Positions 2,678 through 46,497 of a DNA stretch of 64,000 nucleotides are shown here, piece after piece (positions within the stretch are counted from its first letter, which is position 1; each line of letters starts with the position of its first letter). Origin of the DNA: Rhodospirillales bacterium (GTDB lineage: Bacteria > Pseudomonadota > Alphaproteobacteria > Rhodospirillales > UBA2165). The DNA lies in assembly GCA_022823235.1 (NCBI GenBank), contig JAJDXO010000041.1, positions 62,001 through 126,000 of the forward strand, given 5' to 3'. The notes beneath the pieces were generated by a model. It worked only from the letters and a program-made list of their open reading frames with translations. It was not told the origin of the DNA and ran no database searches. Both the position numbers and the translations under genes were made by a program.

Positions 2678-2773
2678 TCCCGACGGGTTCCTCACCCTAC
2701 CTCATTCCGCAAGACACAAGGGTCGGGGTCAGGGGGGACGCAAGAACGGGAAACCCCCAATTGAGTTCGGGCT

Positions 2774-4456
2774 CTAGTCGCGGGTGAGCGGCTTATATTT
2801 GATCCGGTGCGGCTGATTGGCCTTCTCGCCGAGACGCCGCTGCCGGTCGGCTTCGTAATCCTCGTAGTTGCCTTCGAACCAGACCACCTCGCTGTTGCCC
2901 TCGAAGGCCAGGATATGGGTGGCGATACGGTCGAGGAACCAGCGGTCATGGCTGATCACCGCCGCGCAGCCCGGAAACTCCAGGAGGCCCTGTTCCAAGG
3001 CGCGCAGGGTTTCCACATCAAGATCGTTGGTCGGCTCATCCAGCAGAATCACATTGGCGCCGGACTTCAGCACCTTGGCGAGGTGCACCCGATTGCGTTC
3101 GCCGCCGGAAAGCCGGTCGACCTTCTTTTGCTGGTCGGGGCCCCGGAAATTGAATTGCCCGACATAGGCCCGGCTCTGGATCTTGCGGCTGCCGAGATCA
3201 ACTTCGGCCTCGCCCTCGGAAATCTCTTCCCAGACCGTGTTGTCGTCATTGAGGGCATCGCGGGACTGATCGACGTAGCCGAGCGCGACCGTGTCGCCGA
3301 GCCGGATGGAACCGCCATCCGGCTCCTCCTCGCCGGAAATCATCCGGAACAACGTCGTCTTGCCGGCACCGTTGGGTCCGATGATGCCGACGATACCGCC
3401 GGGCGGCAGCTTGAAACTCAGATCGTCGATCAGCAGGTGATTGCCGTAGCCCTTGCGAAGATCGGCCGCCTCGATGACCAGATCGCCCAGCCGGGGACCT
3501 TCGGGGATGATGATCTGAGCGGTGTCGGGATTTCGTTCCGCCGCCTGCGCCCGCAACGCCTCGAAGGCCTGGATTCGGGCCTTGGACTTGGCCTGCCGCG
3601 CCCGCGGCGATTGGCGAATCCATTCCAGCTCGTGGGCAAGGGTCCGCTGGCGGGCCTTTTCCTGCTTCTCTTCAAGGGCCAGGCGTTGCTGTTTCTGCTC
3701 GAGCCATGACGAATAATTGCCTTCGTACGGGATGCCCCGTCCCCGGTCGACCTCCAGGATCCACCCCGCCACATTATCGAGGAAGTAGCGGTCATGGGTG
3801 ACGGCGACCACCGTGCCTTCGTACTCCTGCAGATGAAGCTCCAGCCAACCCACGGATTCGGCGTCCAGGTGGTTGGTCGGCTCATCGAGCAGGAGAAGAT
3901 CCGGCTTCTGCAGCAACAGGCGGCACAGCGCCACGCGCCGGCGCTCGCCGCCCGAAAGTTTGGTCACATCGGCATCGCCCGGCGGGCAGCGGAGCGCATC
4001 CATGGCGATTTCCACGGTGCGCTCGATTTCCCATCCGTTGACCGCGTCGATCTTCTCCTGCAACTCTCCCTGCTCGGCGAGCAGGGCATTCATTTCGTCA
4101 TCCTCCATGGGCTCGGCGAATTTTTCGGATATTTCGTTGAACCGGGCGATCAGCCTGGTGGTTTCGCCAAGTCCTTCGACCACGTTCTCCTCGACGGTCT
4201 TGTCCGGATCCAGTCCCGGCTCCTGGGGCAGGTATCCGACCGTCGCGCCGTCGGCCGCCCAGGCTTCACCGTTAAATTCCCTATCGATCCCGGCCATGAT
4301 CTTGAGCAGGGTCGATTTGCCGGCGCCATTGACGCCGAGCACCCCGATTTTCGCACCGGGAAAAAACGACAGCGAGACATCCTTGACCAATTCCCGCCCC
4401 CCGGGCAGGACCTTGGTCAGCTGTTTCATCACATAGACATATTGGTAGGAGGCCAT
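2774..4456 (-). CDS. ettA: energy-dependent translational throttle protein EttA (ABC-F)
   Basis: The 560-residue protein has two ABC ATPase domains and no membrane segment, which is the ABC-F layout. Domain 1 has Walker [10 protein letters not shown] and signature [16 protein letters not shown]. Domain 2 has Walker [10 protein letters not shown] and signature [15 protein letters not shown]. The arm between the walkers and the length match EttA. The C-terminal RIKYKPL is typical of EttA in particular, and the protein starts with ASYQYVYVM as EttA does. EttA binds the ribosomal E site and gates entry into elongation according to the ATP/ADP ratio. It converges with mlaA, and no clear terminator is seen in the 96 bp between them. 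Confidence 0.95.
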
Positions 4457-4537: not shown

Positions 4538-5605
4538 CTATTTGCGTGCCGGGAACGGATCGGCATAGGCCGGGTCGGTCAGAAACGCCTCATCGGTCAG
4601 GCTCTCCAGAAACGCGATCAAATGGCGAATTTCGTTCTCGCCGATCTCAAATCCGCGGACCAGGGAGCTCCGGCCCGGGGCGCCTCCGGGGCGTCCGGCG
4701 GCGGCATAGAGTTCGATCACCCCGCGCAGGGTTTCGACGCTGCCGTCATGCATGTACGGCGCGGTGACGGCGACATTGCGCAAACTGGGCGTGCGGAACC
4801 GGCCGCGATCTTCCGCCCGGCCGGTCACCGCCGCCAATCCCGGATCATCCGGATCACCGAGCCCGGTGTTGTGAAACGCCGCCTCGTCAAAGGCCAGCCG
4901 CCGGTCCCGATGCGTGTCGGTGAAGTGCAGTCCGCCATGGCACTGAAAACATTGCAGGCGTTCCGAGAAAAACAGGTCGGCGCCGGCCCGGGCAGCAGGC
5001 AAAATGGCCCGCCGGTCACCGGCCCGAAACCGGTCGTAGGCGGAGCGGGCGGATATCAGCGTGCGTTGAAATTCGGCCACGGCGGCGGCCATCTGTTTCA
5101 ACCGGTCTCCACCGGCACCGAAGGCCGCATCGAACATTCGCCGGTAGGTTTCGTCCCGCCGGAACAGCCGGCGCAGTTGATCCTCCCGCCCGTTCATCCC
5201 CATTTCCGGCGGATCGGCGCCAAATAGCGGCCGCAGCAACTGGTCCTCCAATCTGCGGACATCGGGATTGGCCCAAAGGAGTACGGGCCGGTAGGCCACG
5301 TTTGCAAGGCTGGGGGCGTTCCGCCGAAGCCGATCGCCGTGGACACCGACCGATACGCCGCGCGGGTCCGAAAACGCCCGGTCCTGGCGATGACACGTTG
5401 CGCACGATACGTTCCCGGTCGCCGACAGCCGGGTGTCGTAGAACAGCCGCCGGCCAAGCTCGGCCTTCCCGGGCGACAGCCGCTCCCAGCCGGCTGGGGG
5501 CGGCAGCCATTCGGGCAGGTCGGGAACGGGACCCGTGGCGCGCGCCGGTGCGGTCTCGGTCAACAGCCAGACAAGGCCGGCAATCAGGGGAACGAACGGC
5601 TTCAT
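4538..5605 (-). CDS. di-heme enzyme of the MbnH/MauG family
   Basis: The protein has 355 residues with an N-terminal signal peptide (hydrophobic residues 5-17, cleavage near ARATG), so it is periplasmic. Two c-type heme sites are visible: CATCH near residue 68 and CFQCH near residue 218. The blocks NAPSLANVAYRPVLLWANP, FQRTLISARSAYDRF and APYMHDGSVETLRGVIELYA match the MbnH-like branch of di-heme cytochrome c peroxidase/MauG enzymes, which carry out oxidative tryptophan or protein modification through a bis-Fe(IV) state. The usual MbnP partner gene is not seen next to it. It follows phoB in the same direction with a 50-bp gap, but whether it belongs to the Pho cluster is unknown. A plain cytochrome c peroxidase role remains possible. 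Confidence 0.82.
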   Translation of the reverse strand: MKPFVPLIAGLVWLLTETAPARATGPVPDLPEWLPPPAGWERLSPGKAELGRRLFYDTRLSATGNVSCATCHRQDRAFSDPRGVSVGVHGDRLRRNAPSLANVAYRPVLLWANPDVRRLEDQLLRPLFGADPPEMGMNGREDQLRRLFRRDETYRRMFDAAFGAGGDRLKQMAAAVAEFQRTLISARSAYDRFRAGDRRAILPAARAGADLFFSERLQCFQCHGGLHFTDTHRDRRLAFDEAAFHNTGLGDPDDPGLAAVTGRAEDRGRFRTPSLRNVAVTAPYMHDGSVETLRGVIELYAAAGRPGGAPGRSSLVRGFEIGENEIRHLIAFLESLTDEAFLTDPAYADPFPARK

Positions 5606-31209: not shown

Positions 31210-32397
31210 ATGGCCAAGCTCAAGTACCGCACCATCTCCAAACGCACCGTCGAAGCGCTCTCGGTAGAGGACCGCGACGCGGTCTTCTGGGACGACCGCA
31301 TTCCCGGCTTCGGGGTGAGGGTCTATCCGAGCGGGTCGAAGGTGTATGTGGTCCAGACCCGGCACCGGGGGAAGTCGCAGCGGGTGACGCTCGGGCGTCA
31401 CGGGGTGATCACCGCGGATGCGGCGAGGAAGAAGGCGGCCGAGACCATCAACCGCATCAAGAGCGGCGAGAACCCGGTGGAGCGGGGCTCGGTAACGGTG
31501 GCCGAGCTTGCCGCACGCTATCTGGATGAGCACGTCGACGTGCGCTGCAAGGAGAGCACGCAACGGATGTACCGCAGCGTGGTGAGGCGCTTCATCGTGC
31601 CGTCCTACGGCGGCGTGGCGGTGGAGGACGTGGAGCGCAAGCACATCAACGCCCTTCACCTCGATCTCCGCCACATCCCCTATCAGGCGAACCGGGCGCT
31701 GGAGATCGGCAGCAAGCTGTTCAACCTCGCCGAGGAGTGGAAGGTGCGCACCGGCGGCAACCCCTGCAAGTACGTACGCAAGTATCCGGAGAAGAAGCGC
31801 GAGCGGTTCCTGACCGAGGCGGAGTTCCGGCACCTGGGCGCGGTGCTGAACGAAATGGAGGCGGAGGGACGGCTGCCGGTCTACCCGGCGGCGGCGATCC
31901 GGCTGCTGATGCTGACGGGGTGCCGACGGAATGAGATCGTCGAACTTCAGTGGAAGCACGTGGACCTCACGTCGGGCGAATTGAAGCTTCCGGACTCGAA
32001 GACCGGTGCGCGTCTGGTGCCGCTGTCGCCGGCGGCGGCGCGGGTACTGGCGGAGCTGCCGCGCATACCGGGCAACCCGTGGGTGATACCGGGCACGAAG
32101 AACCCCGGCAAGCCCCTGCCCGACCTCAACCACTACTGGGATGGGGTGCGGGCGGCGGCGGACCTGGCCGAGGTGCGGCTTCATGACCTTCGCCACTCGT
32201 TCGCGTCCAGGGCGCTGGCGCTCGGGGAGTCGCTGTCGATGATTGGCAAGCTGCTCGGTCACAACAAGATCGAGACGACTTCGAGGTATGCGCATCTGGC
32301 GCGGGATTCGATCAAGGCATCCTCGGCCCGGGTGGCCGACAGCATCGAGTCGGACATTTTCGACCGGCCCCGGGCACGCGCGACCGAGTCGGCCTGA
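31210..32397 (+). CDS. tyrosine-recombinase integrase of the island
   Basis: The 395-residue integrase of the P4/prophage type has an N-terminal arm-binding domain (DUF4102-like, with DDRIPGFGVRVYPSG), a core-binding domain with VAELAARYLDEHV near residue 98, and a catalytic domain. The catalytic residues are visible: Arg in LMLTGCRRNEIVELQWKHVD, His and Arg in LHDLRHSFAS, His in LLGHNKIETTSRY and the nucleophile Tyr in that same block. It lies next to the broken kinase gene at the presumed left end, the usual place for the element's own integrase. Confidence 0.94.
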   Translation: MAKLKYRTISKRTVEALSVEDRDAVFWDDRIPGFGVRVYPSGSKVYVVQTRHRGKSQRVTLGRHGVITADAARKKAAETINRIKSGENPVERGSVTVAELAARYLDEHVDVRCKESTQRMYRSVVRRFIVPSYGGVAVEDVERKHINALHLDLRHIPYQANRALEIGSKLFNLAEEWKVRTGGNPCKYVRKYPEKKRERFLTEAEFRHLGAVLNEMEAEGRLPVYPAAAIRLLMLTGCRRNEIVELQWKHVDLTSGELKLPDSKTGARLVPLSPAAARVLAELPRIPGNPWVIPGTKNPGKPLPDLNHYWDGVRAAADLAEVRLHDLRHSFASRALALGESLSMIGKLLGHNKIETTSRYAHLARDSIKASSARVADSIESDIFDRPRARATESA

Positions 32398-32681: not shown

Positions 32682-33884
32682 ATGGCCGCAACGCTGACTT
32701 GGCTCGACCTGACGGCAAGCGACCGGGACAGAATGCGACAGGTCCTGGATCTCTTCAAGGAGCAGGGCACCGTCGACGAGATGGGCCTCGGCCGCCTGCG
32801 CGATGCGCTTTCCGAAGCCCTGTTTCCCGGCACCTCGACAATTCAAACCCGACTGCGCTATGTGCTGTTCGTGCCTTGGATATATCGGCAGCTCGAAGCC
32901 AGGAGGGTCGACTCTTCCAGCGTGTCGGCGCAATTGCGCAAAGCGGAGCTCGAACTTATCGGGCCGCTTCTCGAGAACGGCAGGTCACAGGGCGTAATCG
33001 GTGAACGCGCGCGTGGATCTCTGGCCCGGCAACCCAGCTCGGTATACTGGACCGCGCTCGTGCGCTGGGGCCTGTTCCTGCACGAACGTCCCCAAGGTTG
33101 GTACCACGCCCACTTCACCAGCCTCCTGCACGGCCCCACCGCGGAAGATGCGGCGGACGACCCTGGCATCATCCTCGCGCGTCAACCGAACTGGCATCCT
33201 CGCTTGCCCGATCCTCCGAAAGCATTCCCCGATGAAGCGTTCTTTGACCTGACCCGGGAGGAGGCGGTGTTTCTCCAGGGGCGTATCGAGGAGCGCTGCG
33301 CGGGCACCCTGCTTGCCTGGCTTGCCCGAGAAAGATCGGACGCTCCGACGGACGGTTGCTTTTGGGACGACCGCGCCGCAACGCACGCCCCAGCCGGGCT
33401 GAGGGACACGATAGAACTCTCTCGCCGGTTCTCCCTCCATGTCGAGGGCATGCCGCTGCTCTACAATCTGTTGCTTGCGGAACGGTTCCGCTCCGAACAT
33501 GGCGGCGGTGAGGAAAGGGTCGAACAATACCGGCAGGAAATCGACGAATGGGCGACTCGCGAACTCGAAGAAGCTTCATTCGATCCGGCCGAGCTATGGA
33601 CGTTTGCCGCCTCCCGCCAGCTCCTCGTACCTCCTTTGCGCCATTTCGTGGAAGCCTGGACGTCGCGACTCTCGGATATCGGCTCCGCCGCGATCGCCGA
33701 CGATCGCACTTTGCGCAGCCTGATCGAAAGTCGCGAATGCCATCTCAAGGGTCCGAGGGCGCGCCTGCACAACCCGGCCCGGCTCCTTGATTGGAGTGGC
33801 GAAGTCGGAGTCGGCCGAATGAACTTCCGCTGGCACCGGGTTCGTCAGATGCTGCTCGACCTGCATGAAGGACTTGCAGCCTGA
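32682..33884 (+). CDS. DUF6361 family protein, first gene of a coupled defence-type operon
   Basis: The 400-residue protein is soluble, with no signal or membrane segment. The N-terminal pattern LTWLDLTASDRDRMRQVLDLF, GLGRLRDALSEALFPGTSTIQTRLRYVLFVPWIY resembles the DUF6361 family, whose function is unknown. A later block DREEAVFLQGRIEE-like segment (near residue 190) and helical repeats fill the rest. GAGG precedes the ATG. Its stop shares one base with the start of the phospholipase-D-like gene (TGATG), so the two products are made together. The context suggests an accessory or sensor subunit in an antiviral system; no catalytic motif is seen. Confidence 0.68.
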   Translation: MAATLTWLDLTASDRDRMRQVLDLFKEQGTVDEMGLGRLRDALSEALFPGTSTIQTRLRYVLFVPWIYRQLEARRVDSSSVSAQLRKAELELIGPLLENGRSQGVIGERARGSLARQPSSVYWTALVRWGLFLHERPQGWYHAHFTSLLHGPTAEDAADDPGIILARQPNWHPRLPDPPKAFPDEAFFDLTREEAVFLQGRIEERCAGTLLAWLARERSDAPTDGCFWDDRAATHAPAGLRDTIELSRRFSLHVEGMPLLYNLLLAERFRSEHGGGEERVEQYRQEIDEWATRELEEASFDPAELWTFAASRQLLVPPLRHFVEAWTSRLSDIGSAAIADDRTLRSLIESRECHLKGPRARLHNPARLLDWSGEVGVGRMNFRWHRVRQMLLDLHEGLAA

Positions 33885-35695
33885 TGCTGTCACCCGACTC
33901 CAGGACCGTCGCCTTCGACCTGCTTCGCCCGCCAGCCGGCTACGACCTCGATTTCGCCTTACTGACGACCTACACCCTCGACCTGGAGGCGTTGCTCGCG
34001 TTGCCTTTGGGTATTGTCGCGCGGGTGGACAATGGGCTGGAGGAACTGCTCGCAGATCCCCTTCTCCTTCTCGAGGCCTTGCGCCGGGCGGGTGAACGAA
34101 TCCACGTCTTCGTGGATCGGGCCGGTATCGCCATCCCCCGCCAGAGGCGTGAGCTCTATACAATGCTGGAGCAGAGCGTGCATCCCGTGCGCGCGCCAGG
34201 CAGTGGAGCTTTCCACCCAAAGGTCTGGCTGCTGCGCTTCATCTCTGAAGACGGAGAGATTCTGATACGTGTCGCAGTCCTGTCGCGGAACCTCACTTTC
34301 GACCGTTCGTGGGATATCGCACTCGCAACAGAAGCTTCGCCAATGCCCAGGCAACGAACTGCCGGGAGCCGCCCTCTCGCGGAGTTCGTCCGACGCCTTC
34401 CGAAACTTTGCGCTAAACCACCGAAACCTTCCGTGCTCGACAAGATACAGGTGCTTGCCAACGAGGTCTCTCGCACCCGTTTTCCAGCCCCCGACGGGTT
34501 TTTCGACGACCCGGTCGCCTTCCACGTCCTCGGTATGGGCGGGCGAGAGGCGACCAGTCGGCTGTGGCAGCCGATTTCCGGCGGATACGACATGATCGCC
34601 GTTGCTCCCTTCGTCGGAAGTATGGCGCTGAATTCGGTCGCCGGGATGGGCGAGGGCCAGCGCATGCTGGTAAGCTCCCGGGAAGAGCTGGACAAGTTGC
34701 CCAACTGCGTGCTGGAGGGCTGGAATCGCGTCTGCGTGATCTCGGATGCCGCTCTCGACGAGATGGAGGACGACAACGTCAGCAGACCTTCCGGCCTGCA
34801 TGCCAAGTTCATTGCGGTAGAGCACGGCTGGGACGTCACTTGGCTGGTGGGGTCCGCAAACCTGACCTTTGCCGCATTCTCCGGCAGGAACGTCGAGGTC
34901 ATGGCCGCCCTGAGCGCCCGCAAGGGTCGCCGCAACGGTAACAGCGGATATGGCATCGGGCGCTTCCTGGAGTCTGGATTCGAGACGCTCTGTGAGCCAT
35001 ATCGACGCGGCGAGCCCGAGGCCGGTTCGGCCGAGATAGCGGAGGCGCTCAAAAGACTCGAGGCTGCCCGGGACGAGCTTCTCGATGCCGACCTCACGGT
35101 CGTCTGCTCTCCATCCAGCGAGAATTGGACGTGGGGCCTTGAAGGTTTCCTCCCCCACCCGGCGTCCGATGTAGATGTCAAGGCTTGGCCGATCTCGTTG
35201 GCCGAGGAACAGGCCCTCACCCTTGAACTCCCCTTGGTCTGGACCCTGCCGATCGAACGGCTCACCCGGCTCGTTGCCTTCCGTCTGCATGTCTCCGTGC
35301 CGGGAGTCGACGACATCGCCCTCACGCTCAGCCTTCCCGTCGAGGGCATGCCTGAAGACCGCCTGCACCATGTTCTCAGAAGCCTGATCGGCGATGCAGA
35401 GCGCTTCATGGCCTTTCTCCGCGCGCTGCTGGGCGGCCTTGATGGCATGATCCAGTGGGCGCACGGCGGCGATGCCAACGTCGACGCCGCGTCCTGGGCA
35501 ACCGTGCCGGGCGAAGGGACTCTTCTCGAGGGGTTAGTGCGCACTGCCTCCCGCGATCCCGGCCGCCTGGAGCCGGTGCGGCGCCTGATAGAGGAATTCC
35601 GCAGCACCGAGGAAGGCCGGCGCATCGTCCCGGATGACTTCCTCGAGATCTGGAGCGCGGTGGAGGAAGTCCTGCGCGAGGACGGCCGCTCATGA
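33884..35695 (+). CDS. phospholipase D-like (HKD) protein
   Basis: The 603-residue protein has two PLD-type half-sites. One is HPKVWLLRF near residue 109, followed by SRNLTFDRSWD. The other is HAKFIAVE near residue 306, followed by GSANLTFAAFSGRN. Each has the HxK pair and the downstream GS/SR-N-LT element of PLD nucleases, although the Asp of a textbook HxKx4D is replaced. Such domains act as nucleases in defence systems (for example DrmC of DISARM) and in restriction enzymes of the BfiI type. A C-terminal region of about 200 residues is unassigned. It overlaps the helicase gene by 4 bp (ATGA), implying a multi-subunit machine. Nuclease activity is inferred. Confidence 0.72.
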   Translation: MLSPDSRTVAFDLLRPPAGYDLDFALLTTYTLDLEALLALPLGIVARVDNGLEELLADPLLLLEALRRAGERIHVFVDRAGIAIPRQRRELYTMLEQSVHPVRAPGSGAFHPKVWLLRFISEDGEILIRVAVLSRNLTFDRSWDIALATEASPMPRQRTAGSRPLAEFVRRLPKLCAKPPKPSVLDKIQVLANEVSRTRFPAPDGFFDDPVAFHVLGMGGREATSRLWQPISGGYDMIAVAPFVGSMALNSVAGMGEGQRMLVSSREELDKLPNCVLEGWNRVCVISDAALDEMEDDNVSRPSGLHAKFIAVEHGWDVTWLVGSANLTFAAFSGRNVEVMAALSARKGRRNGNSGYGIGRFLESGFETLCEPYRRGEPEAGSAEIAEALKRLEAARDELLDADLTVVCSPSSENWTWGLEGFLPHPASDVDVKAWPISLAEEQALTLELPLVWTLPIERLTRLVAFRLHVSVPGVDDIALTLSLPVEGMPEDRLHHVLRSLIGDAERFMAFLRALLGGLDGMIQWAHGGDANVDAASWATVPGEGTLLEGLVRTASRDPGRLEPVRRLIEEFRSTEEGRRIVPDDFLEIWSAVEEVLREDGRS

Positions 35696-38600
35696 TCCGG
35701 CCTCGCCCCAAAGAAATCCTGAAACCACTGAAACCTTTCCAGCGTCGCACCGTCGACCACGCCTTCCGCCGCCTGTTCCTGGATGCGGACAGCACGTCCC
35801 GCTTCCTCGTCGCCGACGAGGTGGGCCTGGGAAAGACGCTGGTCGCGCGCGGCATCATCGCCAGAACCATCGATCACCTATGGGAGGACGTCGATCGGAT
35901 CGACATCGTCTACATATGCAGCAATGCGGGCATCGCCCGCGCCAATCTCCCGAAGCTCCAGATCGGGGGCGCCAACGAGCGCTCGTTCGCGCTGGCGACC
36001 CGTCTCACCATGCTGGCAACTGAGCTGGCGCCCGGAGACGACGGGCCGGGCTTCATGGAGAACAAGCTGAACTTCGTCAGCTTCACACCCGGCACTTCGT
36101 TCGAGATGGGCCATTCGGGCGGCCAACGACGAGAGCGGGAAGTCCTGTTTCATCTCCTAGCACCGCATGTCAAGCGTAGCACGCCCTTGATGAACCTCCT
36201 GCAAGGTTGGGTGACGAAGACGGATGCCTGGCGCAGAGGGCTCGACGCGGAACTCCCCATCGAGCCCACAATTCGACGAGAATTTGATGAGGAATTCGAG
36301 AAGCGAGTCGACCTGCACCGCAAACTGCGCGATCTCCTCGATAACTCGTTCCATCGCTACCGGCGCCACTGGCCCGATGAGGCAAGATGTGGGCGCGACG
36401 AGGTGATCGGCGAACTGCGGCGGTTGCTCGCGGCGGTCTGCATCCACGCCCTTGAGCCGGACCTGGTCATTCTGGACGAGTTCCAGCGGTTCAAACCCTT
36501 AATCGAAACCAGGGAAGACCGTCGCAGTGAGGCCGCCGAGCTCGCCCAATCCCTGTTCCAGACCAAGGCGCATGACGGCCGCCCCGTTCCGACCCTCCTT
36601 CTCTCGGCAACGCCGTACAAGCTCTATACGACAGACGCCGAGATCGAGCAGGAGGACCACTACGAGGACTTCCTGGCCACGACACGGTTCCTGTTCGGCG
36701 TTCAGGAATCCCGTGTGGAGACCCTGGCCAGCGGTCTCGCCCGGTTTGCCAATGCCCTCAAGCGGGCGACACCGGACGACAGAGATTCGCTTCAAGTGGC
36801 CGCCAACGCAAAGACCGGCGTCGAGAACGCGCTTCGATCAGTGATGGCCAGGACCGAGAGGGTTACCGCCAGCGACGAGCGGGACGCCATGTTGAGGGAG
36901 CCCGAAGTCAGGCTGTCGCTCAAGCCGGCTGACGTACGCCAGTATCTCGCCGCAGACGCGCTGTTCGAAGCCGTCGGCGACCGGGACCCGATGCCGTTCT
37001 GGAAGTCGGCACCCTATCTTGTCCATTTCATGCGCGGTTATAAGCTCAACGAGCGCCTTGATGAGATGCTCGAGCTTTCGCCTTCCAAGGTTGCCGCCGT
37101 ACTGCGATCGCATCGCAAGTCATTCCTGTCGGCCGAGACCTTGCACCAATGGTTGGAGCTTGATCCCGCGCACCCCAAGATGCGGGAGATGGTGAGCGAT
37201 CAACTCGACCGCGGCGTCTGGCGATTACTGTGGGTCCCGCCGACTTTGCCCTACTGGCCGCTCGAAGGTCCTTTCCAAGACAAGACCGGGGTAACCAAGA
37301 CACTGCTGTTCTCCGCCTGGAACGTCGTGCCGGACGTCGTCAGCGCCGTCCTCAGCTACGAGGCCGAACGACGCATGACTGGAGGCCGGATCCGCACCTA
37401 CATGGACCCGGCAAGGCAGCAGGTCCCCTTGCTGCGCCTTACCCAGTCCGCGGCACAAATCCGGTCTCGCCACCGTCTTCTGCTGCTTCTACTGCCATGC
37501 CTGCAGTTGGCCGACCGGGCACATCCCCTGAACGCTCCACCAGGGCACGATCGTCGAGAGTGGGTTCACGACTCTGTCGAAACCCTTCTGTCAGCTCCGG
37601 GTCTCCCGGACCCCCAGGACGGCCCCGTCGATGACCGTTGGGAATGGGCGGCGCCGCTGCTTCTCGACCCCGAACTGCGGACCTTCCTGGAGGCATGGCG
37701 TGACGAAGACATTCCGGCAATCAAAGGCGACGAGTCCCTGCCGAGACCGAATCCCGAACTGTTCGGCGCCTATGTCGACGACCTACTCGATCTACCGCTC
37801 GACCAACTCGGGCGTCGTCCGCCCGACCTCGCCGATCTCCTGACGGAGGTCGCTCTGGGCGCCCCCGCGATCCTGGCCCTGCGCAGTCTCAATGTTTCGA
37901 CTGACCTGCCGGCTGACACCCGTCGTCGGCTGGCCGTCACCATCGCCGATGCGTTCTGGAGCCTGTTCAACCAGCCGGCGGTGATTTCGCTTCTGCGCCA
38001 GCTCTCCGTCGGAAAGAAGGCTGCGCGCGACGACAAGGCTTATTGGCGGCTGGTTCTGGAATATTGCCGCCAGGGGAATCTCCAGGCCGTGCTCGACGAG
38101 CAGTGGCACCTGCTGTGGGAGCAGCATGCCTGGTCCGAGTCCGCTGACGCTGCCGAGGTGGCGACGGAATGCGTCAAGACGCTTGTAAACGTGGTGCAAC
38201 CCGTGAGGTCGCGGGTTCACGGCCGTTTTCTCGAAACCCGCGACACCGATCAGGTCGACCCGGAACAAATCCGCATCCGCACCGTGTTTGCCCTTCGCTT
38301 CGGCCATCTGCGCGCGGAAAACGACGAGAACATCAGCGAGGATATGGTTCGAGCCGCGTTCAACAGCCCGTTCCGGCCCTTGGTGCTCACCAGCACCTCG
38401 ATCGGGCAGGAGGGGCTGGATTTTCATCCCTGGTGCCACCGCTTGGTGCACTGGAACCTGCCAGGTAATCCGGTCGACCTCGAACAGCGTGAGGGTCGTG
38501 TCCACCGCTACAAGGGCCATGCCGTCCGGCGCAACGTCGCCGCCGTGCATGGCGAAGCCGCGCTCGCATCGTGGCAGCCGGGCAACGACCTCTGGGCACT

Positions 38601-38904
38601 GATATTCCAAGCCGCAGATCGGGCTGCACGCAAGGCCGGGGATTCCGATCTGGTTCCCTACTGGATCGCTTCCGGAAATTACCGAGTGGAGCGCCATGTG
38701 CCGCTGCTGCCTTATGCGAGGGAGGTCGAAGCCTTCCGACGCCTAAAACGGCAGCTTGCCGCTTATCGCGTCGTCTTCGGCCAGCCGCGACAGCAGGAAC
38801 TGGTTGCTCTGCTCGAACGGGCTGATTTTTCGGACGTTCAACTCAGAGAGTTGATAATCGATCTATCTCCGCCAGACGCAGCAGATGGGCGTCCAGTTCA
38901 ATGA
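35692..38904 (+). CDS. SNF2/superfamily 2 helicase, third gene of the DUF6361-PLD operon
   Basis: The 1070-residue superfamily 2 ATPase shows motif I ADEVGLGKT at residues 41-49, motif II ILDEFQRF near residue 262, motif III LLLSATPYKLY near 303, and motifs V-VI STSIGQEGLDFHPWCHRLVHWNLPGNPVDLEQREGRVHR near 905-940. The last is typical of SNF2-type translocases. A long insert (about residues 450-820) separates the two RecA lobes. It is translationally coupled to the PLD-like protein, so ATP-driven DNA translocation probably feeds the nuclease. Related helicases occur in DISARM and other restriction-like systems, but this three-gene set lacks a methyltransferase. Confidence 0.82.
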   Translation: MIRPRPKEILKPLKPFQRRTVDHAFRRLFLDADSTSRFLVADEVGLGKTLVARGIIARTIDHLWEDVDRIDIVYICSNAGIARANLPKLQIGGANERSFALATRLTMLATELAPGDDGPGFMENKLNFVSFTPGTSFEMGHSGGQRREREVLFHLLAPHVKRSTPLMNLLQGWVTKTDAWRRGLDAELPIEPTIRREFDEEFEKRVDLHRKLRDLLDNSFHRYRRHWPDEARCGRDEVIGELRRLLAAVCIHALEPDLVILDEFQRFKPLIETREDRRSEAAELAQSLFQTKAHDGRPVPTLLLSATPYKLYTTDAEIEQEDHYEDFLATTRFLFGVQESRVETLASGLARFANALKRATPDDRDSLQVAANAKTGVENALRSVMARTERVTASDERDAMLREPEVRLSLKPADVRQYLAADALFEAVGDRDPMPFWKSAPYLVHFMRGYKLNERLDEMLELSPSKVAAVLRSHRKSFLSAETLHQWLELDPAHPKMREMVSDQLDRGVWRLLWVPPTLPYWPLEGPFQDKTGVTKTLLFSAWNVVPDVVSAVLSYEAERRMTGGRIRTYMDPARQQVPLLRLTQSAAQIRSRHRLLLLLLPCLQLADRAHPLNAPPGHDRREWVHDSVETLLSAPGLPDPQDGPVDDRWEWAAPLLLDPELRTFLEAWRDEDIPAIKGDESLPRPNPELFGAYVDDLLDLPLDQLGRRPPDLADLLTEVALGAPAILALRSLNVSTDLPADTRRRLAVTIADAFWSLFNQPAVISLLRQLSVGKKAARDDKAYWRLVLEYCRQGNLQAVLDEQWHLLWEQHAWSESADAAEVATECVKTLVNVVQPVRSRVHGRFLETRDTDQVDPEQIRIRTVFALRFGHLRAENDENISEDMVRAAFNSPFRPLVLTSTSIGQEGLDFHPWCHRLVHWNLPGNPVDLEQREGRVHRYKGHAVRRNVAAVHGEAALASWQPGNDLWALIFQAADRAARKAGDSDLVPYWIASGNYRVERHVPLLPYAREVEAFRRLKRQLAAYRVVFGQPRQQELVALLERADFSDVQLRELIIDLSPPDAADGRPVQ

Positions 38905-40919: not shown

Positions 40920-41834
40920 TCACCGCCAAGCCGCCTCCGAAGTGATCCGACCCAGAAGTTGCTCCATCACGCTGTTGACCTCCCGCTGCCTCAGCACCCG
41001 CGCTTCGCGCTGATTGGCCTCATCACCCGCGCCCAGTTCGAACAGGGCCACTGCTACCGGACCGTCCCTCCGGTACCCCTCGACTTCGTCGTCCCCGGCG
41101 AACCGATTGCGAAGAATCGACAGGCAGTCCCGGATCACCTCGCCATGTTCACCCTCCAAGGCCTTGTGGAACATCTGCGCAGCACCGTCCAGGCCTTCTT
41201 CAGCGTGTTCAATGCAATAGACCAGGTCATGGGCGTCTTTCCGCTCGAAGCGCTGATCAAAGGCCAAAGCCTTCAGGCAAGTGAAGCTCACCAAGTCGGC
41301 GTGCCTCACCACTTCAACGGCGTTTCCCGCGCCGCCAAGGAGCTCTGCCCGAATCTCCGCGACCTGATGCATTTCAAAGACGATGGACGAATGCGGGATG
41401 TTGAGCGCGGAAATATTCCCTTCCGTGGGTAGAGGCTCAACCCTGCCACCAGCGATCTCTGGCGCGTCGGCGAGCAGTTCGACCACCATCAGCGCGCCGT
41501 TTTCGGTGCGAGTCTGCCACCGCCATGAGAGCCTCTGGCCTCTTTCGTTCGTCGACCGCTCGAACCTCATCGCTCGCAGGTTCTCCTCGAGCGTGTGATA
41601 GCCCGCGGTGTCGGCCAGGAGCTGCAAGTCGATGACGATGTCCACATCGAGGGTGCCGGCGTGAGCCGGCACTTCCGGTGGCCGAGCCGCCACAAGGTAT
41701 CTGGGCGTCAGTCCGCCTACCAGAAACACGGACTCCTTCCACGGACCCAGTCCCCGCAGCAAGGTTACGAGGACACGCTCGCATTCGACCGTGTACCGAT
41801 CGCTGTAGCCGTCGAACGTCGCGGGCTTCACCAT
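40920..41834 (-). CDS. AbiEii-like nucleotidyltransferase toxin
   Basis: The 304-residue protein has the nucleotidyltransferase signature of AbiEii-type proteins: FLVGGLTPRYLVA near residue 37 followed by GTLDVDIVIDLQLL near residue 60, which supplies the GG and D-x-D residues. In AbiEii the domain transfers nucleotides to tRNA and blocks growth of infected cells. The start overlaps the stop of the upstream AbiEi-like gene (TGATG), the standard layout of type IV toxin-antitoxin pairs. The long C-terminal helical region is typical. The toxin assignment is by family and pairing. Confidence 0.75.
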   Translation of the reverse strand: MVKPATFDGYSDRYTVECERVLVTLLRGLGPWKESVFLVGGLTPRYLVAARPPEVPAHAGTLDVDIVIDLQLLADTAGYHTLEENLRAMRFERSTNERGQRLSWRWQTRTENGALMVVELLADAPEIAGGRVEPLPTEGNISALNIPHSSIVFEMHQVAEIRAELLGGAGNAVEVVRHADLVSFTCLKALAFDQRFERKDAHDLVYCIEHAEEGLDGAAQMFHKALEGEHGEVIRDCLSILRNRFAGDDEVEGYRRDGPVAVALFELGAGDEANQREARVLRQREVNSVMEQLLGRITSEAAWR

Positions 41835-42934
41835 CAGAAGCCGATCCTTTCGCTCCGCAGGTGCTCGGCCATTTCCCTGGAGCGGCCCTCGCTTCGCATC
41901 AGGTCAAGGTAGACCTGCACGGTACTTGCCAGCCAGACCCCGTTCACGGACTCGCGAAACAGCAACTCGCCCGGTGACTTGACCTCGATGACCGCAAGGT
42001 TCGCGCCTTGGTCAACAACTCGAGCATCCAGTGCACCGAGAGTCCGATCCGCTGCCGGGCTGGCCAGTAACCGACAACGCACCTGGGAAACAGTCGACAG
42101 AAACGGCGCGTACCATTGGCCTGCCGCTTCGTGAGTGATCGCGTACTCAGCCTTGCTCTCTGCGCAGGCCTCGGCGAACTGCTCCACTAGCCCTTCCGCG
42201 CGCGCCGACGGCACGAAGTAGCGCCGCATGGACACCGGTCGCATCATCGCCAACTGATTCACCCATGCATCCAGCAAAGCGCTAGGCTGTTGAAGATGGC
42301 GTTCCTTTCCCGGCCCCTGTCCACGCGACACCACCCATTCGAATTTCTCCAGTTCCGTCAGCACCTGCGAGGCGGTCGCGGGCGATACCCGGGCCTGGTT
42401 GGCGATCTCCTTCACCCCGAACCAGTCTCGATTCCGCATCAGGACAGCATGCAGCACTTGCGCACGACGACTCGAAAACATGGAACGGATGGACCGCGAC
42501 AGGCTTTTCGGGGTCGGTTTGTCCACATACACATAGATGTTTCCGGCGGGAAGAAACAGGCTGCCGCCGCTATCGTAGTAGCCAACCCGCTCCTCCCTCA
42601 GGAACTCCTTGGCTCCAGGTGAAATCGATTGGGCGATCAGGAAGGGCACCGCCTCCCGTGCTTCCGCATCCTCAAACCATTTACGTACAAGTTCCTGTAG
42701 CTGCCAAAGCAACTGCCGCACGTCACGGGGATATACCTCTTTTTTAACTTGGATAAGCAAGGTGGCCGCCTTCCCTCCCACCCGGAGGTCCACCTGTGCG
42801 TCATGTTCTTGATCGGGGCCGCCTAGGCGTTCAATCTCACACAACTCCGCCTGCACCTCGGGCAGCTCCCGTAGGACCTCCAGGAACCCATCAACCAGCC
42901 GTTCTTCCATTACGTCCGAACTGATCATCAGCAT
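41834..42934 (-). CDS. AbiEi-like antitoxin with winged helix and nuclease-fold-like ends
   Basis: The 366-residue protein has a winged helix near residues 155-215 (FGVKEIANQARVSPATASQVLTELEKFEWV), matching AbiEi-type antitoxins that bind operator DNA and repress their own operon. It is larger than a simple AbiEi. The N-terminal 150 residues contain Asp49 and LLIQVKK (62-65), a pattern like a PD-(D/E)XK core with Q replacing E. The C-terminus contains DARVV then AVIEVKSP (about residues 303-321), again like D...ExK. It precedes the AbiEii-like gene by a one-base overlap. A 16-bp palindrome lies ten bases before its start. Alternative starts at 42928 and 42910 exist. Confidence 0.7.
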   Translation of the reverse strand: MLMISSDVMEERLVDGFLEVLRELPEVQAELCEIERLGGPDQEHDAQVDLRVGGKAATLLIQVKKEVYPRDVRQLLWQLQELVRKWFEDAEAREAVPFLIAQSISPGAKEFLREERVGYYDSGGSLFLPAGNIYVYVDKPTPKSLSRSIRSMFSSRRAQVLHAVLMRNRDWFGVKEIANQARVSPATASQVLTELEKFEWVVSRGQGPGKERHLQQPSALLDAWVNQLAMMRPVSMRRYFVPSARAEGLVEQFAEACAESKAEYAITHEAAGQWYAPFLSTVSQVRCRLLASPAADRTLGALDARVVDQGANLAVIEVKSPGELLFRESVNGVWLASTVQVYLDLMRSEGRSREMAEHLRSERIGF

Positions 42935-42992: not shown

Positions 42993-43328
42993 TCAATATT
43001 TACTGCGCAGCGAACAATGCAGACGAAACCCCAACGTCGCGTAGTCCGCCGTCCGGCGAAGGCGTTTCACCTGCACCCGCATCCTAAGCGTCCGCCTCAA
43101 GCCGACGATGTGCCATTCCCAGTCCGCGCCGTTCGTCGCCTCGAATTGCTTCGGGAAGGTGCGGACACGGACGTGCTCCGGATGCCACCGCCTGATCTCC
43201 AGAAGATTGGTCTCGGTGATGGTCTCCTCCCCGTAGCTAACCCAGACTTCGTCGCGGTGCGAGAACCCGAGATTGCGCGACGTCGCATCGCCTAGGTCGA
43301 GGAAGGTGCGTGTGAGGTCAGGCGTCAA
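42993..43328 (-). CDS. DUF6615 family protein, probably truncated
   Basis: The 111-residue protein has the DUF6615-type core ETNLLEIRRWHPEHVRVRTFPKQFEATNGADWEWHIVG and then RMRVQVKRLRRTADYATL, where the usual conserved lysine after RVQxK is followed by more than 100 further residues. Here the frame instead ends with a short unrelated tail (LHCSLRSKY) directly beside the AbiE operator region. It starts with TTG, whose bases overlap the preceding stop (TTGA). I read it as a gene whose 3' half was replaced by the incoming AbiE module. DUF6615 is often found in defence islands; its function is unknown. Confidence 0.6.
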   Translation of the reverse strand: MTPDLTRTFLDLGDATSRNLGFSHRDEVWVSYGEETITETNLLEIRRWHPEHVRVRTFPKQFEATNGADWEWHIVGLRRTLRMRVQVKRLRRTADYATLGFRLHCSLRSKY

Positions 43329-44752
43329 CGCACTTCCTCCTCACTCCCGTCCTCTCCCACGTTCTCCGACGCATTCCAATCCTCCGGCATACCCTCGCGC
43401 AGCATTTTGAACAGGGACCTCCGAGCGATGTCGAAGCCATCGCAAAACGCCGCGTGAACTCTCTCCGGCGTCAGCTTGTGCAACCGGTTGTGAACGATGT
43501 CCGATCGCACACCATAGAGTTCCCTCACAGCATCCTTGATTTCCTGCTCGCTTGTCGCATCGCTTGCCAAAAATCTCGCCGCGCGGTTACGCAACTTGCG
43601 TCCGATGTTGCCCTCGTCCAGCACATACATTCGCTCCAGCGACATCGCGACATCCAGAACCCTGTCGGCCACCGCGAACCGCCCGTCCCTGGCAAGCGCC
43701 TCCGACAGCCGCGTAACGATCGGCGCCATCCTCTCGTAGCGTGCGCTCGTGCGGTTGTGGAACGCCTCAAGCGTTTGTTCCAGTGCTTCTTGGCCCATCG
43801 CCGGACACTCGGCAAGGCCGTCGACGCCCTGAGCCGACCAGCTCTGGTAGAACCCCGGGCTTTGTTCCTCCCGGCCCAGAAGCCGGCCAGCCGAAGCGTC
43901 GGTGCGGTTTGACAACTTGACGAGCGGTGCGACACGCGTAGTGTGACTAACTGCCAGCAGATCCAATAATGCCGCCGCATCAGGGAAAAATGTCGGCGGC
44001 GGCGGTCCCACCGGACCGTTCAAACTGCTTCTTTGCCGGAATTCGGGTCGCCAGCGGAACGGCCGGGCGACCGCGCCCACCGCTCGCCAGTCGTGGAATC
44101 CCGCGAATGACGGAGCGAAGTCCCAGACCGTCTCCTCGTCCACGAACCGCAGCACTTCTTCGTACGGAAGGAGCACCATCCCGTCCTCAACCTCGATTCT
44201 TTCGGACAGGGTAAGGCCATGGAACAACAACATGTCACACGCCACGTCGAGACTTCCGAGTGCCTCTGTTTCCGCCCCGTCTCCGAGCGGCGAGAGAAAT
44301 GCGTTCAACTCTCGGAGAGCCCTCCGGAACCCGTCATCCGGCAGCTCCGCGGCCCGCGCCATCAGCCCGGAAATCAGCGTTCCCGCATAGATATCCCCGT
44401 CGGAACCGAGGATATCCATCGAGAATCGATTGTCGCCGATCAAGCGGCCCGTTACGGCGACCCTCGCGAGCGTCGGATGGGCCAGCAGCGCGTGCCGCAC
44501 CGGATCCAGCACCGCGCGCAAGGGCGCGTAGTGCTCTTCCAAATTCCAGGGCCTGCAGTCGCGAACCTCGTCGTAGAGCAGACGCAGATCGTCGAGCGGG
44601 AAAGGCGGAGGTTTGCCATCCCTCAATTTGATTACGCGCGGATACCGTTCCTGATATTCGTGAAGATAGGATTCCTGCACCTGCGTAAGCGCGGGAAGCA
44701 ATTGCACCAAGCGCTCGATCCAAGCCTCTGAGTCGAATTCTGCCGAGGTCAC
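43325..44752 (-). CDS. protein with C-terminal ApeA-like HEPN domain
   Basis: The 475-residue protein has an N-terminal 330 residues that I do not recognise. The C-terminal part (about 340-450) matches the ApeA-like HEPN type: a helix with LERMYVLDEGNIGRKLRNRAARFL, then VRELYGVRSDIVHNR containing the Rx4xH catalytic motif (Arg416 to His421). HEPN domains of this class are RNases, often targeting tRNA anticodons in abortive infection. The start is GTG overlapping the NYN stop (GTGA), and the end overlaps the DUF6615 start, so all three are made as a unit. RNase activity is inferred. Confidence 0.7.
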   Translation of the reverse strand: MTSAEFDSEAWIERLVQLLPALTQVQESYLHEYQERYPRVIKLRDGKPPPFPLDDLRLLYDEVRDCRPWNLEEHYAPLRAVLDPVRHALLAHPTLARVAVTGRLIGDNRFSMDILGSDGDIYAGTLISGLMARAAELPDDGFRRALRELNAFLSPLGDGAETEALGSLDVACDMLLFHGLTLSERIEVEDGMVLLPYEEVLRFVDEETVWDFAPSFAGFHDWRAVGAVARPFRWRPEFRQRSSLNGPVGPPPPTFFPDAAALLDLLAVSHTTRVAPLVKLSNRTDASAGRLLGREEQSPGFYQSWSAQGVDGLAECPAMGQEALEQTLEAFHNRTSARYERMAPIVTRLSEALARDGRFAVADRVLDVAMSLERMYVLDEGNIGRKLRNRAARFLASDATSEQEIKDAVRELYGVRSDIVHNRLHKLTPERVHAAFCDGFDIARRSLFKMLREGMPEDWNASENVGEDGSEEEVR

Positions 44753-45510
44753 GCCCTCGACCTCTTGCCGGCAGCCGATCCCCTTCGTGCAGCAAGCTTG
44801 CGCCGGATACGCACCGCGCCCGAGCTTCCCTTACTGATTTCGAACCCGCCCGACTCCTCGACCAGGGTGCTCAGGTTCCGGCAACCGTAGCTGCGCGGGT
44901 CGAAGTCGGGCACCAAGGCCAGGATTCTCTTGCCTACATCGCTCAGGTTCGCCCAGCCGTCGTCGTCGGAGCCCTCGATCGCCGTCGCGATGATCTTCAC
45001 GGCCTTAGAGGGCCGCTCCGTTCCTTTTCCGGTATTCTCTTCGCCGCTATCCTTATCCGTACCCGCTTCCGTCAGGTTCTCGACATAGATGAAGCGGTTG
45101 CAGGCGTTGCGGAAGGCCTCGACTGCCTTGCGCTCGCCGAAGCCATATACTTCAAGCCCCTCCTCGCGCAGGCGCTGGGCGAGGCGCGTGAAGTCGCTGT
45201 CCGAACTGACCAGCACGACCCCGTCGAGCGTGCGTTTGTACATGAGGTCCATGGCGTCGATCACCAGCGCAATGTCGGAGGCGTTCTTGCCCTTCGAATT
45301 GCTGCGCTGCTGGTGCTGGAGGATCGCCAGGGACTGGATCGCCTTGTTCCAGCCGGAGAGGCGGGAACCCGAAAAGTCCCCGTAGATACGCCGCACGTTG
45401 GCTTCGCCCAGCTTAACGATCTCGTCGAAGATCGCCTGGGCGTGCTTCGCGCTGGTGTTATCGGCGTCGATCAAAACCGCGAGGCTCTTCGTTTCCCGGG
45501 CTTCAGGCAT
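44749..45510 (-). CDS. NYN-domain (PIN-like) RNase with C-terminal OST-HTH/LOTUS domain
   Basis: The 253-residue protein belongs to the LabA/MARF1-like group. The N-terminal NYN domain has the catalytic aspartates in LAVLIDADNTS (Asp15, Asp17), in ASDIALVIDAMDLMY and in VVLVSSDSDFTRLAQRL. A flexible acidic linker leads to an OST-HTH/LOTUS domain (WANLSDVGKRILALVPDFDPRSYGCRNLSTLVEE), a module that binds RNA. The start at 45510 has AGGAG six bases upstream; the frame extends to 45567 without need. Being first in the coupled operon with a HEPN protein, it would pair two RNase folds in one system. Confidence 0.85.
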   Translation of the reverse strand: MPEARETKSLAVLIDADNTSAKHAQAIFDEIVKLGEANVRRIYGDFSGSRLSGWNKAIQSLAILQHQQRSNSKGKNASDIALVIDAMDLMYKRTLDGVVLVSSDSDFTRLAQRLREEGLEVYGFGERKAVEAFRNACNRFIYVENLTEAGTDKDSGEENTGKGTERPSKAVKIIATAIEGSDDDGWANLSDVGKRILALVPDFDPRSYGCRNLSTLVEESGGFEISKGSSGAVRIRRKLAARRGSAAGKRSRA

Positions 45511-45801
45511 TGGCTCTCCTTGCAGGTGCCCCTTCCCGGGGGTCAGCCCGCGCTGCATGTGGATCAAGGTCGCCGGTGGTACTTACGGCCTGGCCGCCGC
45601 TCGCGCAATGCCTTGCCAGCCATTCCGTTTGCCGGACCGCAATTCTCGTCCGATTCCCGTTATAGACGATGAGGTTCCGCAGAGCAGTGGCGCCCGCTGA
45701 CGGTTATCGCAACGAGATCGGACTCGACATCGCGCCGGAAGGACTTCACATCGGGTGCGTCACAACCGATAAACTGGGGAGAGAATCCTAAGGAGGAATC
45801 A
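45511..45801. other. divergent promoter region between NYN operon and HEPN gene
   Basis: These 291 bp hold the promoters of the minus-strand NYN-HEPN-DUF6615 operon and the plus-strand HEPN gene. I see no gene or recognised regulatory motif here beyond the ribosome sites at each end. Confidence 0.35.
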
Positions 45802-46497
45802 ATGGGTAATCCGCAGCACTATAGTTTGGAACTACCTTCGCGCTGCCTTCAACTGGTGAACGAGCTGTGGCCACTGGTCGAGAAAATTCCGCGACGCGAC
45901 GCCCCGGACCTGGGCCCCTTGACGTCAACATTCTTGATTTCGATTTCCTTTCCTATGATCACGATTCCAGTGGAGCGAATTCAGCGAGCGAGAAATGGCG
46001 GAGACGAGGCGTACGCCAACGACCGAGAGCTTGATAAACAAGTCACGGCCGCATTCGACGCAGTGTTAAACGGGGCGCTGAAAGATGCGCCCTTCTACGT
46101 ATCCGGCCATTGGCGATTTGCTTCTGAGTCCGAAACACTGCCTATCAATATCGCAGATGGCGTTCCTGAATTTATCTCTGACAAATTGAACGAGGAAGAC
46201 GCCGAAGCCGCGGCCAGCGAGATGAACGCCTCCCAATGGGTTAGCATAATTCGAAATTCGCTTGCCCATGGAGGAGTAGCATACTTAGACAACGCCGGCC
46301 GGAGTTCCTTCGGGACCCCGATAAAAATGTATGCATTCGTTAGCGGCACGTACGATCAAGAAGGGTGCAAGTGGCCAGCTCCACTCAAGGGCCTGTACTT
46401 CCTTCGAATTGGAGAGGACCAATACCGCGAATTTCTGAACAGATGGGTAGGTTGGCTAGGCGACATTGGCATGCATCGAGGGATGTCCGCAGCTTAA
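45802..46497 (+). CDS. HEPN-motif protein of unknown family
   Basis: The 231-residue protein starts behind a strong AAGGAGG site. It has no signal peptide. Near residues 146-157 it reads QWVSIIRNSLAHGG, a helix with R-N-x3-H (Arg151, His156), the RNase signature of HEPN domains of the RnlA/MAE_28990 kind. A preceding helical acidic region (DKLNEEDAEAAASEMN) would be the other helix of the four-helix bundle. The gene is lower in GC than its neighbours, suggesting separate arrival. No partner nucleotidyltransferase is adjacent. An RNase effector role is inferred from the motif only. Confidence 0.6.
   Translation: MGNPQHYSLELPSRCLQLVNELWPLVEKIPRRDAPDLGPLTSTFLISISFPMITIPVERIQRARNGGDEAYANDRELDKQVTAAFDAVLNGALKDAPFYVSGHWRFASESETLPINIADGVPEFISDKLNEEDAEAAASEMNASQWVSIIRNSLAHGGVAYLDNAGRSSFGTPIKMYAFVSGTYDQEGCKWPAPLKGLYFLRIGEDQYREFLNRWVGWLGDIGMHRGMSAA

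Follow-up and report, generated by a model that had tools for sequence, protein, structure and literature searches.

The genes for a HEPN-fold protein and a DUF6615 protein form a translationally coupled pair that is not a chance junction, and a damaged copy of this pair lies in an alphaproteobacterial defence island, where a gene for a NYN-LOTUS protein overlaps its upstream end. On balance, we favor the reading that the HEPN protein is a sensor-linked abortive RNase, that DUF6615 is its coupled PD-(D/E)xK partner, broken here, and that the NYN gene is a lineage-specific addition. The array was found in a 64,000-nucleotide stretch of DNA (hereafter the window), which is part of a 154-kb contig from a 3.8-Mb genome. 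A first-pass annotation had proposed that two RNase folds in one coupled array within a defence island constitute an RNA-targeting system. The predicted domains and the coupling are borne out by our analysis, but the combination of all three genes as one system is seen only here; the triad is not a recurring system, and the HEPN–DUF6615 pair within it probably is one.

Organization of the array and its genomic setting

The three open reading frames all lie on the minus strand and are joined by overlaps of 4 bp (Table 1), as the first-pass annotation had described, with GTGA shared by the NYN and HEPN genes and TTGA shared by the HEPN gene and the third gene. An alternative TTG start for the NYN gene at position 45567 is possible and would yield a protein of 272 aa. 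Scanning the array for a sigma-70-type promoter or a terminator gave nothing above chance. The NYN gene shares the leader of the array and is probably co-expressed with the HEPN gene.

Table 1. Features of the three-gene array and of the surrounding island, in window positions.
Feature	Position	Strand	Remarks
NYN-LOTUS (OST-HTH) gene, predicted RNase	44749..45510	-	253 aa from ATG at 45510
HEPN protein gene	43325..44752	-	475 aa, GTG start
Truncated DUF6615 gene	42993..43328	-	111 aa, TTG start within the TTGA overlap
Leader of the array (5′ UTR and ribosome-binding site, AAGGAGAGCCAATG)	45511..45720	-	homologous to the L025 leader directly upstream of HEPN
AbiEi relic, divergent	45701..45745	+	45 bp, 89% identity to L025 2838-2881
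Tyrosine integrase	31213-32397		start of the island
ZacA-ZacB-ZacC homologues	32682-38904		complete, directly behind the integrase
AbiE-like two-gene array	40920..42934	-	behind the DUF6615 break, outside the module
AbiEi_2-like gene	41834-42934	-	weak Pfam AbiEi_2 match, E 0.004
Partner of the AbiEi_2-like gene	40920-41834	-	

The closest related locus, designated L025, provides a view of how the upstream end of the array may have changed. The counterpart of the AbiEi relic in L025 is an intact AbiEi gene in the equivalent place (PADLOC AbiEi, 8.9e-79), which indicates that the window and L025 derive from one ancestral island. The leader alignment between the two loci scores 165.5 and is continuous through the ribosome-binding site and ATG of the NYN gene, and L025 retains an ATG and a 13-codon remnant (3640-3681) overlapping its HEPN start. 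Therefore, loss of an upstream gene in L025 is the simplest reading. The sequences suggest that the lost gene was possibly NYN, a lead only, as the UTR stretch is short: when the UTR part is taken by itself, 0.65% of shuffles reach the same score, and a comparable score with the NYN 3′ end (0.6%) is a sign of how little sequence is available. We also considered insertion of the NYN gene into an L025-like locus and dropped it, because homology that takes in both the ribosome-binding site and the ATG of NYN is more readily explained by a deletion in L025.

The defence island spans ~31.2 to 64 kb of the window. In addition to the features listed in Table 1, it includes a weak match to the TIR model of a CAP12/Pycsar effector, a DruE-like helicase gene, DrmMI- and DpdE/DrmD-like genes, and a gene for a class I prokaryotic Argonaute. 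The Zac, AbiE-like, DruE-like, Drm-like and Argonaute neighbors thus agree with the defence setting that had been assigned to the array. The divergent neighbor at 45802-46497 (plus strand, 231 aa) carries the sequence RNSLAHGG, a possible Rx4H HEPN motif, and its product may be another HEPN protein, with no Pfam HEPN match.

Predicted folds of the three proteins

The HEPN protein consists of an N-terminal portion of ~330 aa without a recognized domain and a C-terminal HEPN domain (residues ~336-455) that carries R416-x4-H421. Its gene product matched no Pfam, NCBIfam or PADLOC model, and searches with five members of the family matched no Pfam model, that of ApeA included, even at E 10. The first-pass label "ApeA-like" could therefore not be kept, and ApeA membership was dropped in the absence of a match to either Pfam ApeA model (HEPN or NTD). 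An AlphaFold2 model based on an alignment of five sequences has a mean pLDDT of 49.6, with residues ~337-455 modeled fairly and the remainder poorly. When residues 336-455 were compared with the PDB by VIA-align, HEPN entries occupied the top ranks, with Z values that are moderate for a helical domain: the HEPN toxin 8xdj (Z 8.6, 111 residues aligned, 3.4 A), Csm6 (6tug, 8.2), 1wwp (8.0), HepT (6m6u/7bxo, 7.7), YutE (7.7), and 7ae8 (7.3). Foldseek with the whole model returned noise, with no match below E 1, and a PDB sequence search with the HEPN profile gave nothing relevant.

R416 and H421 are invariant in the five aligned members, which share 29-73% identity. Both the all-helical fold and the conserved R-x4-6-H motif of the HEPN superfamily are thus present, in keeping with the earlier assignment of a HEPN domain with these two residues, and RNase activity is predicted from this fold and motif. 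Values of dN (0.18) and dS (0.60) between the window and L025 indicate purifying selection on the HEPN gene. The poorly modeled N-terminal region is, at a guess, the sensor.

By described features, the window HEPN resembles Tha, a tail-activated anti-phage protein of Staphylococcus aureus prophages whose C-terminal HEPN domain (R265/H270) is a non-specific RNase in an abortive-like defence (PMC11087260). Both have an N-terminus without a recognizable domain and a C-terminal Arg-x4-His HEPN domain (R265/H270 in Tha-1), and both are single-gene RNases, predicted in our case. Unlike the window protein, Tha is 301 aa in length, prophage-encoded, and paired with the inhibitor Ith, and no DUF6615 partner is described for it (PMC11087260). 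In the excerpts of the 2013 HEPN survey by Anantharaman et al. (PMC3710099), ApeA-type proteins likewise have two parts, with a C-terminal Rx4-6H HEPN domain, and are encoded near restriction-modification genes. However, ApeA-NTD1 is described there as mostly beta strands, whereas the part of the window protein that precedes the HEPN domain is mostly helical in a model whose pLDDT is below 50 for most of this region.

The NYN-LOTUS protein matches the Pfam NYN (1.2e-37, residues 10-143) and OST-HTH/LOTUS (4.8e-16, residues 169-232) models, so that the first-pass description of an NYN protein with an RNA-binding LOTUS domain agrees with the profiles. Its acidic active-site motifs, as read from the sequence, are LIDADN, NASDIALVIDAMD and SSDSDF. 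An NYN domain with an acidic active site followed by an OST-HTH domain is the arrangement of the NYN-LOTUS single-gene RNase family (TIGR00288-like/LabA-like), and the window protein is ~50-54% identical to Rhizobium, Microvirga and Sphingomonas plasmid proteins of this family. It is single-copy in its genome. Of 114 other alphaproteobacterial genomes sampled, 5 contain a relative, as do 365 plasmid records. The nine neighborhoods of relatives that were viewed contain repABC, IS21, an EAL-domain gene and housekeeping genes, with neither HEPN nor DUF6615 beside the NYN gene in any of the nine. These unrelated surroundings imply that NYN is usually mobile as a gene on its own; unlike the lone relatives sampled, the window copy overlaps the HEPN gene by 4 bp. 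Most likely, NYN is a lineage-specific addition to the array that accompanies HEPN only in the window lineage. One homologue (L061:4947-6389, genome G481; 63% over residues 3-165) lies inside a long open frame that may reflect a gene fusion or an artefact of the frame.

The third gene belongs to DUF6615 (PF20320, an unnamed family), as first annotated, but only as a fragment comprising the first ~92 of ~290-309 residues. It scores 24.1 bits against a Pfam cut-off of 23.8 and covers only profile positions 28-90 of 289. By comparison, a full-length relative (L018) covers positions 1-284, and full-length relatives have 285-309 residues. Homology is confined to residues 1-92 (about 43328-43053), and the rest is new sequence past a break. 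Over the first 99 residues of a 285-aa Martelella plasmid protein the identity is 58%, with no further similarity to that protein downstream in the window in any frame. The 309-aa DUF6615 protein of L026 (6739-7668) is ~80% identical to the window copy over the first 92 codons.

A model of full-length DUF6615, built from 10 sequences, has an alpha-beta-beta-beta-alpha-beta core (helix 34-48; strands 53-57, 70-75 and 80-89; helix 109-119; strand 123-129). Its nearest solved structures by Foldseek and VIA-align are human Rep15, the Holliday junction resolvases Hjc and RecU, and R.SwaI, and on these matches to the model we assign DUF6615 to the PD-(D/E)xK nuclease fold. Residues E34/E35, D69 (in GADWEW) and Q86-x-K88 are invariant in 10 members, the window copy among them. 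The window copy therefore displays the catalytic E, D, (E/Q)-x-K pattern while most of the profile length is uncovered, and judged by the L026 model its homology ends before helix 109-119 and strand 123-129, leaving incomplete a core that is complete in full-length proteins. Because the last core helix and strand are absent, we infer that the window DUF6615 is inactive. The remnant is probably dead; all predicted catalytic residues are kept, so that a residual function is conceivable.

Two further observations concern this family. Away from HEPN-like genes DUF6615 stands alone, for example as cargo between structural genes, in an equivalent place, in several prophages (L039, L040, L041 and L043), and it may be a prophage defence gene by itself; none was found in the phages searched. 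Rep15, a vertebrate Rab15 effector, is the top solved-structure match of full-length DUF6615 (Foldseek 1.2e-6, Z 10.6). The top matches of the DUF6615 profile among PDB sequences share a GADWxW motif (E 0.16), and Pfam Rab15_effector against the window fragment gives 0.018. Likeness to Hjc only is noted in the excerpted text of the Rep15 paper (PMC9308819). A family of bacterial PD-(D/E)xK nucleases may have given rise to this trafficking protein of eukaryotes.

Distribution and history of the gene pair

A search of 84,980 species genomes with a three-row HEPN alignment profile recovered six loci. With the window protein alone as the query, no close relatives were found in genome contigs, and the alignment found none in viral contigs. 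The six loci are from a Rhodospirillaceae MAG (L025, the same locus as L016; HEPN 74% identical), a Pseudomonadales MAG (L026, 54%, with an intact DUF6615 gene behind), a Deltaproteobacteria MAG (L027, 53%), an alphaproteobacterial MAG in which the HEPN frame is broken (L028), Shimia, where it contains one stop (L029), and a Maritimibacter MAG whose HEPN is identical to a Sagittula plasmid gene (L030 and L005, respectively). IS elements lie on both sides of the Sagittula copy. No NYN gene lies beside HEPN in any of these loci, and all three genes occur together in no other HEPN, DUF6615 or NYN locus examined. Five loci with weak HEPN matches (L021, L022, L023, L065 and L066) have no adjoining DUF6615 or NYN gene by profile. 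Furthermore, the 199 other genomes of the same order, two of them from the same genus, yielded no strong HEPN relative; the array was thus probably acquired recently and locally.

DUF6615 directly follows HEPN in one of the other loci, L026, where the junction (GGAGG..GCGTTGA) has a ribosome-binding site and a TTGA overlap identical to those of the window. The dS values between the window and L026 are 1.53 for HEPN codons 1-410, 0.68 for HEPN codons 411-475, and 0.51 for DUF6615 codons 1-92. The low values in the HEPN tail and in DUF6615 show a mosaic junction: a single exchanged segment covers the HEPN end, with R416/H421 in it, together with the first part of DUF6615. The first-pass annotation had held that occurrence of the triad only here would make it a chance junction of separate relics; the triad is indeed restricted to the window, but the L026 pair contradicts a chance junction for HEPN and DUF6615. 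The pairing is not obligatory, as DUF6615 is absent next to HEPN in L025, L027, L029 and L030, the last two being Rhodobacterales homologues.

Among seven DUF6615 loci from genomes sampled irrespective of HEPN, two have a gene for an Rx4H HEPN-like protein within less than 2 kb (L024 in G265, convergent; L019 in G410, divergent), and both are distant relatives. This proximity is suggestive, with the proviso that defence genes cluster in any case. Neighbors of the HEPN gene include a type III methyltransferase and a UvrD helicase in L026, and AbiE, a TIR-Argonaute-associated gene and an Mrr endonuclease in L025. Other genes occupy the region upstream of HEPN in two loci. In L026, a 51-aa SEC-C motif protein (5163-5318; Pfam 2.1e-4) takes the place that NYN has in the window, with ATGA shared between its gene and the start of HEPN. 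In L027, the HEPN homologue is immediately preceded by a distant second HEPN-family gene (1172-2530) and a 391-aa gene (2681-3856), neither of which has a Pfam or PADLOC match.

Weighing the explanations

The reading that we favor is based on the HEPN fold with its invariant Arg and His, the L026 junction, the block of shared low dS, and the DUF6615 fold, together with the HEPN-like neighbors of DUF6615 in L024 and L019, the restriction-modification and other defence genes beside L025 and L026, and the occurrence of DUF6615 as prophage cargo. In this mechanism, the N-terminal ~330 residues of HEPN, a probable sensor, would detect infection. The triggered HEPN domain would then cut RNA through R416/H421, and growth of host and phage would stop as with Tha. 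DUF6615 would be the original translationally coupled partner, a Hjc/RecU-like nuclease with DNA as its expected substrate, such that an intact module like that of L026 would pair an RNase with a DNase. In the window, a deletion or recombination event appears to have cost DUF6615 its final two thirds, and only the HEPN part likely works, perhaps with help from NYN. Against this reading is the fact that the coupled pair is tight in only one other locus. A stronger version, in which HEPN and DUF6615 constitute a two-effector anti-phage module of RNase and DNase that once also included NYN-LOTUS in the lineage of the window and L025 and is now decaying, is one that we hold only tentatively.

A patchwork, in which HEPN is a stand-alone defence gene and NYN and the DUF6615 fragment are functionally unlinked leftovers of island shuffling, we regard as rather unlikely. 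HEPN does occur without DUF6615 or NYN in L025, L027 and the Rhodobacterales copies, with the Sagittula copy between IS elements; relics are many (the AbiEi relic, the truncated DUF6615, and the broken HEPN frames of L028 and L029); and HEPN was not found in two other genus members or in the other sampled members of the family. Nevertheless, random shuffling would not be expected to produce the identical overlap and co-inherited HEPN tail of the L026 pair. Slightly lower still do we rate the proposal of a single functional abortive system aimed at RNA, with NYN and HEPN as its two RNA-cutting enzymes and the short DUF6615 protein as the factor that regulates or targets these enzymes. Both overlaps are real, and the leader homology through the NYN UTR and start, with the L025 remnant looking as if a preceding gene, NYN for example, had been deleted, would mean that NYN-HEPN predates the split of two loci whose HEPN proteins are 74% identical. 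This proposal has to contend with the absence of the triad from every other locus, of NYN from beside every other HEPN relative, and of partners from beside the close NYN relatives, as well as with a DUF6615 of which only about one third is left. Toxin-antitoxin genes are typically translationally coupled, and the shortened DUF6615 has been kept as an open frame, as would suit a HEPN toxin restrained by this coupled protein or by NYN. Because full-length DUF6615 is nuclease-like rather than antitoxin-like and HEPN exists without it, we find such an arrangement very improbable.

As the first-pass annotation had supposed, the system has no known name: PADLOC 2023 contains no named system that matches HEPN-DUF6615, and no mention of DUF6615 was found in the literature searched. 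The intact pair is most likely an uncatalogued variant of known arrangements of HEPN with restriction endonucleases. Passages of the 2013 survey report that many HEPN genes adjoin restriction-modification genes and propose a multi-pronged defence (PMC3710099). As in those arrangements, a HEPN RNase is here coupled with a protein of restriction-endonuclease fold; unlike them, the families are not the HEPN and endonuclease families named in these passages (PMC3710099).

The window copy is an example of module shuffling and breakage inside defence islands. If the favored reading is correct, an unnamed HEPN family would be linked to DUF6615, a family that is widespread but uncharacterized. DUF6615 would gain a testable role as a PD-(D/E)xK nuclease that prophages carry as cargo and that also partners a HEPN RNase, and an RNase and a DNase under one trigger would be a useful case of ensured arrest in the infected cell.
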